IMG/VR virus record: IMGVR_UViG_3300015245_000084
Location: 1-21,115 of that record
Strand: one strand, 5' to 3'
DNA from: a virus
DNA: 21,115 nucleotides
Shown here piece after piece: positions 2,066 through 7,634 of the stretch; position 1 is the stretch's first letter; every line of letters starts with the position of its first letter. A program made the position numbers and the translations under genes. The notes under the pieces are model-generated. The model did not search any database, was not told the origin of the DNA, and saw only the letters and a program-made list of their open reading frames with translations.

Positions 2066-2809
2066 CTACGCCAACTTCGTGAATGTCTGCTTCGACGGAG
2101 CCAATGTGACATCAGGAACGATGCCAGACGCCGACTCTCCAAGACCATCGACGCCAAGATTAGTCTTGCCCACCGTAAAGATCGCACTTCCCTTCAAGTT
2201 CACTGCGCCAGATGCAATGAGCGGAATAGCTGCCGCATTCACCGCAAACGTTCCTCCAACATTGAAGGTCACGTTGCCAGGATGATTGATCACCAGCGAG
2301 TCCTTCGTCATCACGATATTACGAACTGACGCACGACCAGCTTGCTTCACCTGACCCATCTTCTGGCCCTGCGCCTGCGGCATCTTGTCATCGTCCATGA
2401 TCTGCATGACAATCTTCTTCGACTGCGGAACCGAGGCCCAGATGCCGTCTCGCTGAAAGTGCACCTGCTGACCCTGGTCGTCGTGCATGGCAGCCTCACC
2501 ATCCTTCAGCTGATACAGGCGATAGCGACGATCTCCAGCAACGAACACCACGCCGTGACTTCGCCCGCCTCCCATGAACCCCATGAAGCCCTCGGCTCCA
2601 TTGCGCTGCTGTCCACTGCCCGTCGGCTTCTGAACAACGGACGTGAAGCCATACGGATGCACGTGCTCGATGTCCTGCTGCTTCTCGTTGGAGAATCCAC
2701 CTAACGTGTGAGCCTGCATGAGCTTCGAATCGTCCACCTGCTCAACAATCGTCCTCGAGATGCCGTTGCCAACGCGCTCAGCGGTGTACCGCGACGCGAG
2801 ATGTCTCAC
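2066..2809 (-). CDS. Baseplate spike / puncturing protein (Mu gp45 family)
   Basis: A 247-aa homologue of Mu gp45, the trimeric spike under the hub that punctures the outer membrane. Family features include 'GRSHGVVFVAGDRRYRLYQL' (residues 82-101) and 'GEAAMHDDQGQQVHF', the OB-fold/early beta-helix region, followed by hydrophobic beta-repeat sequence to the end (residues 165-235). The start is GTG at 2809-2807, inside a GTGA overlap with the hub gene's TGA, with GGAG 10 bases upstream. Unlike spikes such as P2 gpV, I see no HxH iron-site motif near the C-terminus; the only HVH (49-51) is N-terminal. A hydrophilic Gln/Lys-rich stretch at about residues 141-160 separates the two halves. Confidence 0.88.
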   Translation of the reverse strand: MRHLASRYTAERVGNGISRTIVEQVDDSKLMQAHTLGGFSNEKQQDIEHVHPYGFTSVVQKPTGSGQQRNGAEGFMGFMGGGRSHGVVFVAGDRRYRLYQLKDGEAAMHDDQGQQVHFQRDGIWASVPQSKKIVMQIMDDDKMPQAQGQKMGQVKQAGRASVRNIVMTKDSLVINHPGNVTFNVGGTFAVNAAAIPLIASGAVNLKGSAIFTVGKTNLGVDGLGESASGIVPDVTLAPSKQTFTKLA

Positions 2810-3870
2810 AGCGTCCTGCCTCCAGTAACAACGACCTCACCGGTACCAGAGCCGAACCCATCGGCACGACACAGGAGAACATCGGAGATGGTTCCTGCCT
2901 CCGAGGACTGACGATGAATGATACCCTTTATCATAAACTCCAGGCTGTCCTCCGGCAGCAGCAGCGGCGAGTTGATCGTGATCAGCTCCATGACGTGATC
3001 CCACCAGAGAGTCCCATCAGGACAGAGCCAACCATTGACGGTAACGTCACCATCAACAAACATGTACTTCGTCCAGTCGCCCTGGTGATTGGCTCGCAGC
3101 TGCATGGCCGCAGAGTTTCCCATCTCCTCCGCCAGGATGTGCATCGAGCGACCAATCGGGGGGTCGGCCTTGGTGTTCGCCTCCGGGGAGCGATTCTGGT
3201 CGGCGCTGTCCTGCCCCGCGTCCTGCCCCTTGACGGTGATGTCGTCAACATGCTCATTGTTCTTCAGGAGTATGCGACCTCGCTTTATGTTCTTTCCCTC
3301 CGAGAGAGTTAGGCCGCCCGCCGCTGCTCCTCGAAATGCCAGCAGTCCACCCTGTCCGTCGTCTATCATGTGCATGTTGCGCATGCGGCAGAGGCGCTCG
3401 ATGAAGGAGTATCTCGACTCGCCGATGTGCTCCGAGACGCGAGGGAACGGCATGTCTCCTGACGCAGTCACGGTGAAGTTGACGCCGATCTCACCGAACA
3501 CCGCGCTCCCTATCTGCTGCAGAGTCTGATTGACGTACTGCCCAGGCTCGCCGGTGACGGTGGACGCCATCACGGCCTGTGATATCGAGCAGATGCCGAT
3601 CTGTATCTCGTGCGTCCCACCATCAGCAACGCCCTGACGAAGATAGACCTGCCCGTTCATTATCTGCTTGCCGGCAAGAGACACGGTCGCCTTATCACCC
3701 GGCTGCAGCTTCAGTGTCGCGAGCGTCGATGCCCCGCTGCTCACCTCCGAGGCGGTCAGCAGCACGTGATCGATGATGTCCTCGGCGCTACGCGTCGCCT
3801 CGATCGTGGTCCAGGAGTTGTACTTCTGTCCCTTCGCCGTGACCTCGGCTATCTGATCAGAACGCGGCAT
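2806..3870 (-). CDS. Baseplate hub protein (Mu gp44/P, P2 gpD / T4 gp27 type)
   Basis: A 354-aa hub protein that caps the tail tube and holds the spike. The N-terminal beta domain ('GQKYNSWTTIEATRSAEDII', then 'LKLQPGDKATVSLAGKQIMN' and 'GQVYLRQ') is the standard gp44 opening. The middle carries 'SRYSFIERLCRMRNMHMIDD', typical of late-control D/gp44 hubs. The frame stays open 38 codons further upstream, but I take the ATG at 3870-3868 because it forms an ATGA overlap with the stop of the preceding gpN C-terminal gene and the upstream codons look non-native. No clear ribosome site is present, consistent with coupling. A charged stretch at about residues 215-240 (DAGQDSADQNRSPEAN) is probably a loop. 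Confidence 0.9.
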   Translation of the reverse strand: MPRSDQIAEVTAKGQKYNSWTTIEATRSAEDIIDHVLLTASEVSSGASTLATLKLQPGDKATVSLAGKQIMNGQVYLRQGVADGGTHEIQIGICSISQAVMASTVTGEPGQYVNQTLQQIGSAVFGEIGVNFTVTASGDMPFPRVSEHIGESRYSFIERLCRMRNMHMIDDGQGGLLAFRGAAAGGLTLSEGKNIKRGRILLKNNEHVDDITVKGQDAGQDSADQNRSPEANTKADPPIGRSMHILAEEMGNSAAMQLRANHQGDWTKYMFVDGDVTVNGWLCPDGTLWWDHVMELITINSPLLLPEDSLEFMIKGIIHRQSSEAGTISDVLLCRADGFGSGTGEVVVTGGRTL

Positions 3871-4559
3871 CAAAAGGACAGAGCCCGGCCGGTGTGTGGC
3901 ATGAACAATGGATGTATCGGCTTGTTCTCCGCGATCAGCTCGGCGCTGCGAGACGGATCCTGGTACAGATTCTGCGCGATCCACAGAGACGACCGCTGCA
4001 TGGGGTACTTGTAGGTCACCATCTTAGGCAGTGGACGCGCGCGCGTCTCCAGGTCGTCTGACACAGCAGCAAAGAGACTGATGAGCGCCACATACGCGAC
4101 GTTGTCAAGATTGCCGGCGGCGACCTCGATCGCCTCGTTGAACGACGCGGTGATGATGTTGAAGTACCTGTCGATATCCTGCCGACTCGTAAAGTCAGTC
4201 GCGGCGAGAACCCGCGCCTGCTCGACCAGACACATTCTCATCGAGTAGTTCTTGACGGCGATTGCCGGCAGACCAGTCGGCGTCAGTGCATCAGTGCTGA
4301 CCCGCACTGCCTCTATGACCTGGAACGACGCATTATTGAGAAACACGGCGTCGAAGCAGCTAGTCAGGTCGATCCAGAACTGCAGGTTCCCCTCTGGCAC
4401 CGTATTGAGCTCGTCTGCTGCATTAGTCTGCAGTTCTCCGCACAACTGCGACAACGTCACCGTGGTCGGCGTCGTCGATGTCCCACCGATGGTGCCGAGC
4501 AGCGCCAGCAGCACAGACTGCGTGACGCTGGTGGCCTCTACGAGATCTACTTGGTTCAA
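3870..4559 (-). CDS. DNA circularisation / tail protein gpN, C-terminal part as a separate gene
   Basis: This 229-aa protein matches the C-terminal half of Mu gpN (gp43): 'DLETRARPLPKMVTYKYP', then 'LYQDPSRSAELIAENK' and 'IHPLFMP' at residues 172-222 is the conserved end of that family. The N-terminal half is encoded by the next gene upstream. The start is TTG at 4559-4557, inside a TTGA overlap with the upstream stop and 6 bases after a short GAG. An in-frame TGA at 4577-4575 rules out a longer N-terminus and no ATG occurs for many codons, so TTG is the only reasonable start. In Mu the single protein is part of the hub/tail tip. Whether the two halves form a complex here is inference. Confidence 0.82.
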   Translation of the reverse strand: MNQVDLVEATSVTQSVLLALLGTIGGTSTTPTTVTLSQLCGELQTNAADELNTVPEGNLQFWIDLTSCFDAVFLNNASFQVIEAVRVSTDALTPTGLPAIAVKNYSMRMCLVEQARVLAATDFTSRQDIDRYFNIITASFNEAIEVAAGNLDNVAYVALISLFAAVSDDLETRARPLPKMVTYKYPMQRSSLWIAQNLYQDPSRSAELIAENKPIHPLFMPHTGRALSF

Positions 4560-5065: not shown

Positions 5066-7164
5066 CAGGACGTCTCGCTCGAGACAACCATCGGGCGACC
5101 ACGATTCAGCGTCACCTGCTTGAACCCGTCGGACTTCAGGCCCGTCTTGGTTCCCTTCGGAAAGCCATTCAGGTCAACCGTCAGGTGCGCATTGCTGTTG
5201 AGATCTCCGCCCGAGTCAACGGCCCTCATGCCGCGCCTGAGAAGATCAGCATCAGCCGGGGGGCGACGTCCTCGCGTTGCCATGTCGCGAAGCTTCGCGC
5301 CGTGGGCCTCCTTCGCCTGCATCATGTCGCGCCACTGACCATATTTCTTCTCCAGTCCTGGCTCCCCCCATCCTGGAGAAAAGAAGCTCTCGCCGTGGTA
5401 CTCGCTCTTGAACCTAAACTTGCCACTTGCCTTCTCTCGCGCGGCAAGGCCCTGCGATGAGTTGTCAGTCGCATAATTTGAGACGTTCCCGCCAGAGAGC
5501 ACGCGAGCGAGGTTCTCCTCGGACATCTTTCTCTCGTGCTCGCTGAGATGCGATGGCTTGCCGGCATAGTAGCCACCGGCCTCGCGACCGTACCACTTGG
5601 CCTGCTTCTCGAGCGTCGTGCCGCGCACGATGGCGCGGTTCATCATGCTCTCCATCACGGCCTGATTGGCCTGCAGGGACTGGCCCTTGGATGGGCGATC
5701 CTCGCCTGCAGACAGCTGAAACACCTTCTCCTTCAGCGCAGGATTCTGCTGAAGCTCCTGCGCAAAGCGCTCGCGCTGCTTGGCCAGTGAGTCACTGGAC
5801 ATTCCAAAGGAGCCGCCACCACTATTGATGGACGCGTCGCTGCCGCTGCCTCCAGGAACACTGGCACCACTCGACGACTTGCCCATGGATTTCGGAATCG
5901 AGCCGCCGCCTCCGGTCCCTGCCGCGCCTCCACCACCGAGGTTTGGAAACTCCTTACTGCCAAAGCGCGGAGTCGATCTCCCGCCTCCCTCGCCACCAGG
6001 ATGAAACGCCATCGGCGTGTATCCACCCTGCTTGTTCGTGTCCTGTAGCGAGTGATAGAAGTCCTCGAGACCCTCCTTCACTCCCTCCTTCACGCTCTCC
6101 TTCGCCTTCTTGTCGTCGGCGCCACCGAACACCGGCTTGCCCCACCACGACATCCAGTTCGGCTTCTTGTCGTCGGTGCGAGGCTCCTTCTTCGAGAGCT
6201 GATCGGCAAGACTATCCTTGTCCCCGAACAGCGGCTTGTTCCACCACTTGTCAGCACCTCCCGGCGTCATGATGGTCTTGAAGATCTTGGCAATGTCCTC
6301 CGCCATGTTCTTCATGTCGTCGATGTTGTGCTTCAGCGCCGGCCCCACGAGATTTCCGAGATCACTGGTCAGGCCCCGAAACGTGGCTCGCACTTCCTCC
6401 CACGCAGCCTTCGTCTCCGCCGCCTTCTTGGCATCGAACGGATGCTCCTGCTGCCACTGCTTGGAGATGCGCTCCATCTCCTGCATCTCCTGCGTCGTCA
6501 GGTCGCGCCAGTTCTCCGGCAGGCCAAAGAACTCAAGAACGCGAGCGCGCTGGTCAGAGCTCTTGATGGTGGGAATGTACTCCATCACGCGCCGGAGCTG
6601 CTCCTCGCGCGTCTTGAAGCCGTCGAGTGACTTACCGAGCTGGTTCCACAGCGTAGGGAACTGCTTGTACGCGTTCATCCAGGAGTAGGAGCGACGAGCC
6701 TGCTGATCCATGTGCTGGCCAAACGTCTCCAGCGACTGAATCGTCTCCTCCTGCGAGGCACCCCATCGCGCGTTGGCCTCGGCCAGTCCCCGCAGCGTGT
6801 CGATCTGCAGGCCAGACGCGCGATGCGCCAGGGTCAGGGTCCTTCCCCAGCTCGCCCAGTCCAGTCCAGACTTCACCACGATCGCGCCGGCAGCGGCGAC
6901 GGCCCCGGCGAGAGATGTCATGCCGATCCCCATCTCTGCGATGGCAGGAGTCGCCACGTCGATGCCCTGCGTCTTGAGCCTCACGATCTGCTCGCGCAGC
7001 ACGTTGTACGCGCGGCCGTGCTCGGTCGCCTGCTTGGCACCAGCCTCGTTCGACTTCTTTCCGAAGTCAGCAAGCGCCTTCATGTCCCTCTGCATATCCT
7101 TCAGAGGACCACTGTACTTGTTGACGACCTCAGCGACGAGTCGCATGGTCTCCTGCTCAGACAA
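5065..7164 (-). CDS. Tail tape measure protein with muralytic-type C-terminal domain (Mu gp42 position)
   Basis: At 699 aa this is the longest chain in the tail module and sits where Mu encodes its tape measure. Residues 1-65 are helical; 78-98 is a hydrophobic, Ala/Gly-rich segment; 100-300 is helical and charged; 385-460 is a Gly/Ser-rich linker. Residues about 470-620 resemble peptidoglycan-hydrolase-like domains I know from tape measures of rhizobial phages ('QAVMESMMNRAIVRG', 'VSNYATDNSS', 'GESFFSPG'), with E488 or E505 as possible acids. A motif WWxKPxFG occurs twice (307-314, 340-347). The end (LNRGRPMVV) resembles Mu-type tape measures. The start is TTG at 7164 with GAGGGAG 6 bases upstream; an in-frame ATG at codon 7 is the alternative. 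Confidence 0.88.
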   Translation of the reverse strand: MSEQETMRLVAEVVNKYSGPLKDMQRDMKALADFGKKSNEAGAKQATEHGRAYNVLREQIVRLKTQGIDVATPAIAEMGIGMTSLAGAVAAAGAIVVKSGLDWASWGRTLTLAHRASGLQIDTLRGLAEANARWGASQEETIQSLETFGQHMDQQARRSYSWMNAYKQFPTLWNQLGKSLDGFKTREEQLRRVMEYIPTIKSSDQRARVLEFFGLPENWRDLTTQEMQEMERISKQWQQEHPFDAKKAAETKAAWEEVRATFRGLTSDLGNLVGPALKHNIDDMKNMAEDIAKIFKTIMTPGGADKWWNKPLFGDKDSLADQLSKKEPRTDDKKPNWMSWWGKPVFGGADDKKAKESVKEGVKEGLEDFYHSLQDTNKQGGYTPMAFHPGGEGGGRSTPRFGSKEFPNLGGGGAAGTGGGGSIPKSMGKSSSGASVPGGSGSDASINSGGGSFGMSSDSLAKQRERFAQELQQNPALKEKVFQLSAGEDRPSKGQSLQANQAVMESMMNRAIVRGTTLEKQAKWYGREAGGYYAGKPSHLSEHERKMSEENLARVLSGGNVSNYATDNSSQGLAAREKASGKFRFKSEYHGESFFSPGWGEPGLEKKYGQWRDMMQAKEAHGAKLRDMATRGRRPPADADLLRRGMRAVDSGGDLNSNAHLTVDLNGFPKGTKTGLKSDGFKQVTLNRGRPMVVSSETS

Positions 7165-7167
7165 TGA

Positions 7168-7634
7168 CTACTCCCTCGCTAGCCGCAGGCGCACGATGGC
7201 GCGCCTCATCAGGTCGTCGATGACCCACTGTGGCTTTCCAAAGAACTGAAAGGGACTGCACTTGAAGGTCAAGGCGAGGTCGATGCACTTATCGACGTGA
7301 TCATCTACCTCGCCGGAGTAAAAAACGGCGAAATCGCCCAGGCTATGCCCGTCAGATCATTGGGATCCAACTCGGCGAGCGAGGACGATGGGATAGCGGG
7401 GTCCGACAGACGAGCCACCATGGCCACGACTCTGGAGTAGTCGTGCTCGATCCGCAGCGGATCAGCATACGGAAAGAAGATGACGGGATTGCCGACGGTC
7501 ATCAGGTCCGCGCCAAGCGGCCGACGCATCTTGATGACGGCGATCTTCTCCCCGTACGCCATGATCGGCGTCTTCAGCGGATAGGTCACGAAGTCCGGAA
7601 CCTTGGTGGCGTCTTCCTTTTTTTCTTCAGTCAC
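7168..7634 (-). CDS. Frameshifted long form of the tail assembly chaperone (gp41/gp41'-type fusion)
   Basis: A -1 slip in the TTTTTT run (7325-7320) would join the first 105 residues of the chaperone to a 50-residue extension read from 7320 to a TAG at 7170-7168, giving about 155 aa. The extension (YSGEVDDHVDKC, then FQFFGKPQWVIDDLMRRAIV) is an open, protein-like frame that fills the gap before the tape measure. It has no start of its own: its frame has a TGA about 30 bases before the slip run and no ATG/GTG near it. Mu and many other tailed phages make such a pair, the long form binding the tape measure during tube assembly. The frameshift itself is inferred from sequence. Confidence 0.8.
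7273..7325 (-). promoter_or_regulatory. Programmed -1 frameshift signal: slip run plus stem-loop
   Basis: On the minus strand the chaperone reads CCG TTT TTT ACT, giving a run of six T (7325-7320). Five bases (ACTCC) separate it from GGCGAGGT (7314-7307), which pairs perfectly with ACCTCGCC (7280-7273). Inside that stem, past one A/G mismatch, GATG (7305-7302) pairs with CATC (7285-7282); then, after a 2-base bulge, CAC (7299-7297) pairs with GTG (7288-7286), leaving an 8-base loop. The zero-frame TAG (7307-7305) lies in the stem. The slip run is not the ideal X XXY YYZ heptamer (it is G TTT TTT), so slippage with the second TTT in the P site is likely. Confidence 0.78.
7305..7634 (-). CDS. 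Tail assembly chaperone, short form (Mu gp41 type)
   Basis: This 109-aa protein sits between the tail tube and tape measure, the usual place for the chaperone that coats the tape measure before the tube polymerises. 'YPLKTPIMAYGEKIAVIKMR' and 'RPLGADLMTV' near residues 18-48 match the opening of Mu gp41-like (TAC_7-type) chaperones, where a short beta pair precedes 'RxPxxxDL'. The start is GTG at 7634-7632, 9 bases after GAGGAG; the run MTEEKKED makes a charged N-terminus. It ends at TAG 7307-7305, which lies inside the stem-loop of the frameshift signal, so termination and frameshifting compete at the same place. Confidence 0.85.
   Translation of the reverse strand: MTEEKKEDATKVPDFVTYPLKTPIMAYGEKIAVIKMRRPLGADLMTVGNPVIFFPYADPLRIEHDYSRVVAMVARLSDPAIPSSSLAELDPNDLTGIAWAISPFFTPAR

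Follow-up and report, generated by a model that had tools for sequence, protein, structure and literature searches.

A probable −1 programmed ribosomal frameshift signal with a lineage-specific hairpin in a viral tail assembly chaperone gene

Does the tail assembly chaperone gene of this soil phage encode a single protein, or does a −1 programmed ribosomal frameshift add a second, longer product? The locus lies in the window, i.e., the whole stretch of DNA analysed here, which is a virus record of 21,115 bases. The genes of a contractile tail follow one another on its minus strand in the order sheath (10041-8068), tube (8053-7688), chaperone ORF (7634-7305) and tape measure (7164-5065). The sheath protein was recognised by PF17482 (5.4e-12) and phrog_165 tail sheath (9.8e-118), the tube protein, which is of the Mu M type, by PF10618 Tail_tube (3.7e-32), and the tape measure protein, the gene of which starts with TTG, by phrog_2276 tail length tape measure (5.1e-13). 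The ORF between the last two begins with GTG, ends with a TAG at 7307-7305 and encodes 109 amino acids. In Pfam, this product matched PF10109 Phage_TAC_7 over residues 17-105 with an E value of 3e-8 (34 bits against a gathering cut-off of 25), and among the PHROG families it matched phrog_166 tail protein (1.1e-13). The ORF encodes a tail assembly chaperone of the Phage_TAC_7 family, with the tube gene on one side and the tape measure gene on the other. Elsewhere in the window, the ORFs 2806-3984 and 3870-4559 share 115 bases at positions 3870-3984, which probably means that 2806-3984, the downstream gene, is listed with too early a start.

The end of the chaperone gene reads CCG TTT TTT ACT CCG GCG AGG TAG in frame 0 of the minus strand. 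One base back after TTT TTT, the reading continues as TAC TCC GGC GAG GTA and stays open for 50 codons (YSGEVDDH...RLARE) until a TAG at 7170-7168. This −1 extension occupies positions 7168-7319 of the minus strand, and its first codon, TAC (7320-7318), begins on the last T of the run. The TAG is followed by TCA and then by the TTG of the tape measure gene at 7164. The junction product is SPFFYSGEV, and it is the same wherever in the T-run the step happens; the prophage locus L023 (see below) has an identical junction. In the window, the −1 frame is last closed by a stop 12 codons ahead of the slip, and no ATG, GTG or TTG occurs between the two.

The slip site, G_TTT_TTT, is found at 7320-7326 (minus strand) and contains the T6 of 7325-7320; the coding strand has no other T6 anywhere in the window. 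The canonical heptamer X_XXY_YYZ has three identical bases at its beginning, whereas here the first base is G and the heptamer is imperfect. It does contain the tetramer U_UUU, which belongs to the Z_ZZN class of slippery motifs (PMC4066793), as an in-frame T_TTT with TTT at 7322-7320 as the A-site codon. The spacer ACTCC (7315-7319, minus strand) has 5 nt and leads to a candidate stimulatory hairpin at 7273-7314 of the same strand that holds the 0-frame stop. The earlier note had described the T6, the 5-nt spacer and the hairpin at these positions, the zero-frame TAG within the stem, a −1 frame of 50 codons without a start of its own that ends with a TAG 3 nt before the tape-measure TTG, and a slip site that is not a perfect heptamer. 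The re-check confirmed this anatomy, with the positions of the run, spacer and hairpin exact to the base.

Relatives were fetched by searches with the tube protein, which gave about 50 loci, one of them a prophage (L023) of Bradyrhizobium japonicum in8p8. The chaperone end was complete in 45 sequences, counting the window, and the 33 distinct ones among them are the basis of the counts presented below. A scan of genome contigs returned only one relative, and in a sample of 392 genomes from the family of that relative, the tube was matched in 4 genomes. A perfect in-frame A_AAA_AAG heptamer is present near the chaperone start of the window (7618-7624, minus strand); it is absent from the ORF of the other 32 distinct relatives and is therefore probably due to chance. 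In the relatives L007, L017 and L027, the chaperone ORF downstream of the tube gene is about twice as long. In L007 and L017, it appears by eye to consist of two tandem chaperone-like halves, and Pfam gives two Phage_TAC_7 stretches for L007. The first copy in L007 ends with GAG TTT TTT ATC CCG, possibly a leftover slip site, and its −1 frame closes after four codons.

The stem of the hairpin is composed of 8 bp (7314-7307 with 7280-7273), an A-G mismatch (7306/7281), 4 bp, a 2-nt bulge and 3 bp, and is closed by a loop of 8 nt (7296-7289). The hairpin starts 5 nt downstream of the slip, within the range of 5-8 nt published for stimulatory hairpins (PMC4066793). Its energy is −23.2 kcal/mol, compared with a mean of −12.3 for dinucleotide shuffles, none of which was as low (0/200, z −4.1). 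As the stretch codes in one or two frames, synonymous recoding using the codon usage of the window was added, and none of the 300 recodings that keep the proteins of both frames reached the hairpin energy of the window (mean −15.5). The stem had been called 'unusually clear' in the earlier note; both analyses indicate that it is real, but it is limited to a subclade of four members.

The strong hairpin is lineage-specific: its only carriers, the window, L005, L006 and L008, make up the starred four-row clade (98/96). The outer 8-bp stem is intact in all four members, and the gap between slip and stem is likewise 5 nt in L005, L006 and L008. An exact search with the slip-plus-stem sequence of the window gave matches only in the contigs of these three relatives. 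The stem is not kept outside the four-member subclade, and most members of the wider family have no structure beyond codon constraint. Within the subclade, L005 has A-U in place of one G-C pair of the stem, and an insertion of 15 nt lies within the hairpin of L008, the stem of which is intact. The search for covarying stem pairs, proposed as a check, was only partly successful: the outer pairs are kept in 4/4 sequences with one compensatory pair, but among only four sequences a single such pair was equalled by 118 of the 500 shuffles, and most of the family lacks the stem.

These results bear on the possibility that the frameshifting is real while the hairpin merely results from coding constraint and has no stimulatory role. 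Most family members manage without a clear hairpin, and so do P2-like phages as published (PMC3091744). Moreover, only the window (p = 0.003) and L008 (p = 0.03 at 50 nt, 0.19 at 60 nt) surpass synonymous recoding in stability within the subclade, in contrast to L005 (p = 0.07) and to L006 (p = 0.26), although the outer stem of L006 is the same. Against this stand the stability of the window hairpin, matched by no recoding, its spacing of 5 nt, and the outer 8 bp, which are intact in every member of the subclade despite the insertion in L008 and include the compensatory G-C/A-U exchange. We consider a by-product hairpin unlikely and prefer to regard the hairpin of the window as a probable stimulator of the frameshift.

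Other structures were noted at or near the site. The Rfam search gave no match within the window. An upstream hairpin, GGCGATTTCGCC, located just before the T-run and terminator-like, was taken as chance because the corresponding sequence of L005 and L008 does not form it (by eye). In a 176-nt fold, the spacer formed a long-range pairing with GGGAGTA, located ahead of the start of the tape measure gene; this was likewise rejected, as the end of the extension in L008 is without that sequence (by eye). In L007, a different hairpin is found at the same place. The sequences of the more distant clade B (L039 and related) have a hairpin of their own about 13-45 nt past the slip, GGCGATGCAGTT-CTR-AACTGC-T-ATCGCC, with the 0-frame stop near its tip, and one of its pairs shows a G-C/A-U exchange in 5 of the 14 sequences.

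The analysis of the relatives showed that the T-run is strongly conserved. At least six T's in frame as NNN TTT TTY, in runs of T6-T8, are present at the homologous place in all 33 distinct sequences, and each run is followed by a −1 ORF of 50-60 codons; further loci found by other routes (L061-L064, L078 and L082) are concordant with this pattern. The heptamer is T TTT TTC in 21 sequences, T TTT TTT in nine and G TTT TTT in three (the window, L005 and L008). The first Phe codon is TTT in 33/33 sequences, compared with a TTT:TTC ratio of 61:91 elsewhere in the same genes, and the base before the run, which is a third codon position, is T in 30/33, although CCT accounts for only 37 of the 472 Pro codons in those genes; these codon counts are not independent across the 33 sequences, owing to shared ancestry. 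Both biases indicate that the run is maintained as a nucleotide sequence and not merely to encode Phe-Phe. The G in the group of the window is a synonymous CCT/CCG difference, CCG being the commonest Pro codon. The conservation of the T6 and of the extension, which the earlier note had named as a check, is thus borne out by the 33 distinct sequences, but it has one exception beyond them. Locus L083 (1000-1114), found through its extension, reads CAT TTT CTC with only four T's. As the extension is kept there, a long T-run is usual but not obligatory, and L083 represents a candidate tetramer-only (U_UUU) slip site.

A conserved T-run could also be a site of slippage by RNA polymerase, which would produce mRNAs with one extra U and yield the long product by ordinary translation; runs of T7 and T8 in several relatives, e.g., L018 and L027, would suit this explanation. 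However, polymerase slippage usually needs longer runs, and the window has T6 only, while in many relatives the T6 is followed by C. Slippage of the ribosome accounts better for the selection of T at the first heptamer position and for the hairpin next to the run, and we regard slippage of the polymerase as very improbable and that of the ribosome as the preferred reading.

The extension evolves as a protein in the −1 frame and is under purifying selection. In the 14 sequences of clade B, the pN/pS past the 0-frame stop is 0.35 in the −1 frame, which equals the value of the chaperone itself, in contrast to 1.10 and 1.53 in the other frames. In clade A, to which the window belongs, the pN/pS of the extension is 0.56, with synonymous sites near saturation. 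The pattern C-[IV]-D-L-A-L-x-[YF]-K-C-[DS]-P-x-x-F-[LM] recurs in the extensions across the relatives. The extension of the window gave no match to Pfam PF06528 (P2 GpE'), and its comparison with P2 E' by hhalign resulted in a probability of 44% and an E value of 2e-4.

The extension might be expressed as a separate gene from its own or a coupled start codon, and one TTG, one ATG and one GTG are present inside the extension of the window. The conserved core IDLALxYKCDPxxFL, however, starts ahead of any of these internal starts, and the −1 frame upstream of the slip is free of start codons, as described above. A scan for starts in the window, covering 60 nt around the slip, revealed neither ATG nor GTG accompanied by an SD-like sequence. 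Over 60 nt to each side of the slip, ATG and GTG are both absent from the open −1 frame in 23 of the 33 sequences, and one of these codons together with an SD-like sequence occurs in only two. A separate gene is hardly credible on this evidence, and entry into the extension by −1 frameshifting is the reading that we retain. A sequencing error or a decayed gene would look identical in a single sequence, but the relatives refute this explanation: the same frame break recurs in 33 distinct sequences, in the Bradyrhizobium prophage (L023), in P2 and in five other phage isolates, and both chaperone and extension are under purifying selection.

The T-run and extension in every distinct sequence, together with the selection on the −1 frame, strongly support the −1 programmed frameshift proposed in the earlier note, and the signal is very probably of the P2 E/E+E' type. 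Judging from the sequence, slippage itself would proceed as follows. Most ribosomes would complete the 109-aa chaperone and terminate at the TAG within the hairpin. Some would be paused by the hairpin, 5 nt past the T-run, while the two Phe codons TTT TTT occupied the P and A sites; their tRNAs would re-pair one base back, and reading would go on through the hairpin for 50 codons, giving a chaperone-plus-extension of 155 aa. The A-site tRNA-Phe could re-pair perfectly on U_UUU, whereas the P-site tRNA would face G at its first position. Because the heptamer begins with G, we infer that re-pairing mainly involves a single tRNA, on the A-site UUU; with G TTT TTT instead of a perfect heptamer, slippage probably leans on the U_UUU tetramer, and its rate could be low. 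Measurements in E. coli placed U_UU.C and U_UU.U among the few tetramers prone to shifting when a stimulator is present (PMC4066793). A natural viral site with G in the first position is GUUAAAC of an animal arterivirus (PMC3835772). By analogy with lambda gpG/gpGT, the short form may act as a coat around the tape measure, and the long form, which would be rarer, may recruit tail-tube subunits.

A tentative and rather doubtful extension of this mechanism is that the hairpin arose in the subclade and let T TTT TTY relax to G TTT TTT, so that slippage would have changed from two tRNAs to mainly one with the ratio of the products kept. If this were true, one gene family would hold a natural series of perfect heptamer, G-heptamer and bare tetramer (L083). 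All G-type sites fall within one four-row clade, and the degraded slip site of L083 is accompanied only by a fold of modest stability (−13.9 kcal/mol over 60 nt). That weak slip sites are correlated with strong hairpins is therefore put forward as a conjecture. The gene family is a clean set of natural variants of one frameshift signal and could be used to ask how far bacterial ribosomes depend on the full heptamer if a hairpin is available. Gene callers easily overlook extensions of tail chaperones. These results leave the general view of phage tail assembly as it was.

The literature search found no paper on GTTTTTT or TTTTTTC as a tail frameshift sequence. The survey by Xu and colleagues from 2004 is said to be the usual citation for the conservation of such frameshifts in tailed phages. 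The U_UU.U and U_UU.C sites of bacterial insertion sequences resemble the window in that a single tRNA-Phe can re-pair from UUU to UUU; unlike in those sites, the tetramer of the window sits in a heptamer that is off consensus only at the first base. In lambda, a −1 shift ahead of the tape measure gene yields the two chaperone products G and GT (PMC5009743). The direction of the shift, the two chaperone products and their position agree with what is proposed for the window. The slip sequence of lambda differs from that of the window.

The tail module of Mu is homologous to that of the window (tube PF10618 and Phage_TAC_7 chaperone), and its chaperone gene has the same position, but the shift in Mu gp41 is −2 (PMC5009743). 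The open extension of Mu is in the −2/+1 frame and that of the window in the −1 frame, so the window does not fall into the Mu type, and P2 E/E+E' is the proper precedent. Mu had been cited in the earlier note for frameshifts at this chaperone position; P2 compares better with the window, and its layout is the same, as is that of the five isolates.

The five isolates, Pantoea AH07, Bordetella PBb002, Serratia BZS1, Citrobacter phiNP and Acetobacter phiAP1 (L085-L089), have sheath, tube, chaperone and tape measure in the same order as the window, and in each of them T TTT TTN leads into a −1 frame that stays open up to the tape-measure start. The extension is annotated in none of the five records. 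They differ from the window in their perfect heptamers and are distant from it in sequence, the tube proteins having 30-35% identity where measured.

P2 E/E+E' resembles the window in the position of the gene before the tape measure, the T6 core, the −1 direction and the Phage_TAC_7 chaperone, a Pfam family that covers P2 E, Mu 41 and 14. The procedure used here also recovered the documented P2 site T TTT TTG, which is a perfect heptamer in contrast to G TTT TTT. The two extensions are similarly long (57 codons for P2, 50 for the window). A downstream hairpin was reported to be absent in P2-like phages (PMC3091744), which makes the hairpin of the window mildly unusual. Comparison at the sequence level gives good support for the view that the locus would be unusual in two points only, the relaxed heptamer and the lineage-specific hairpin, and would otherwise belong to a known kind of phage frameshift.
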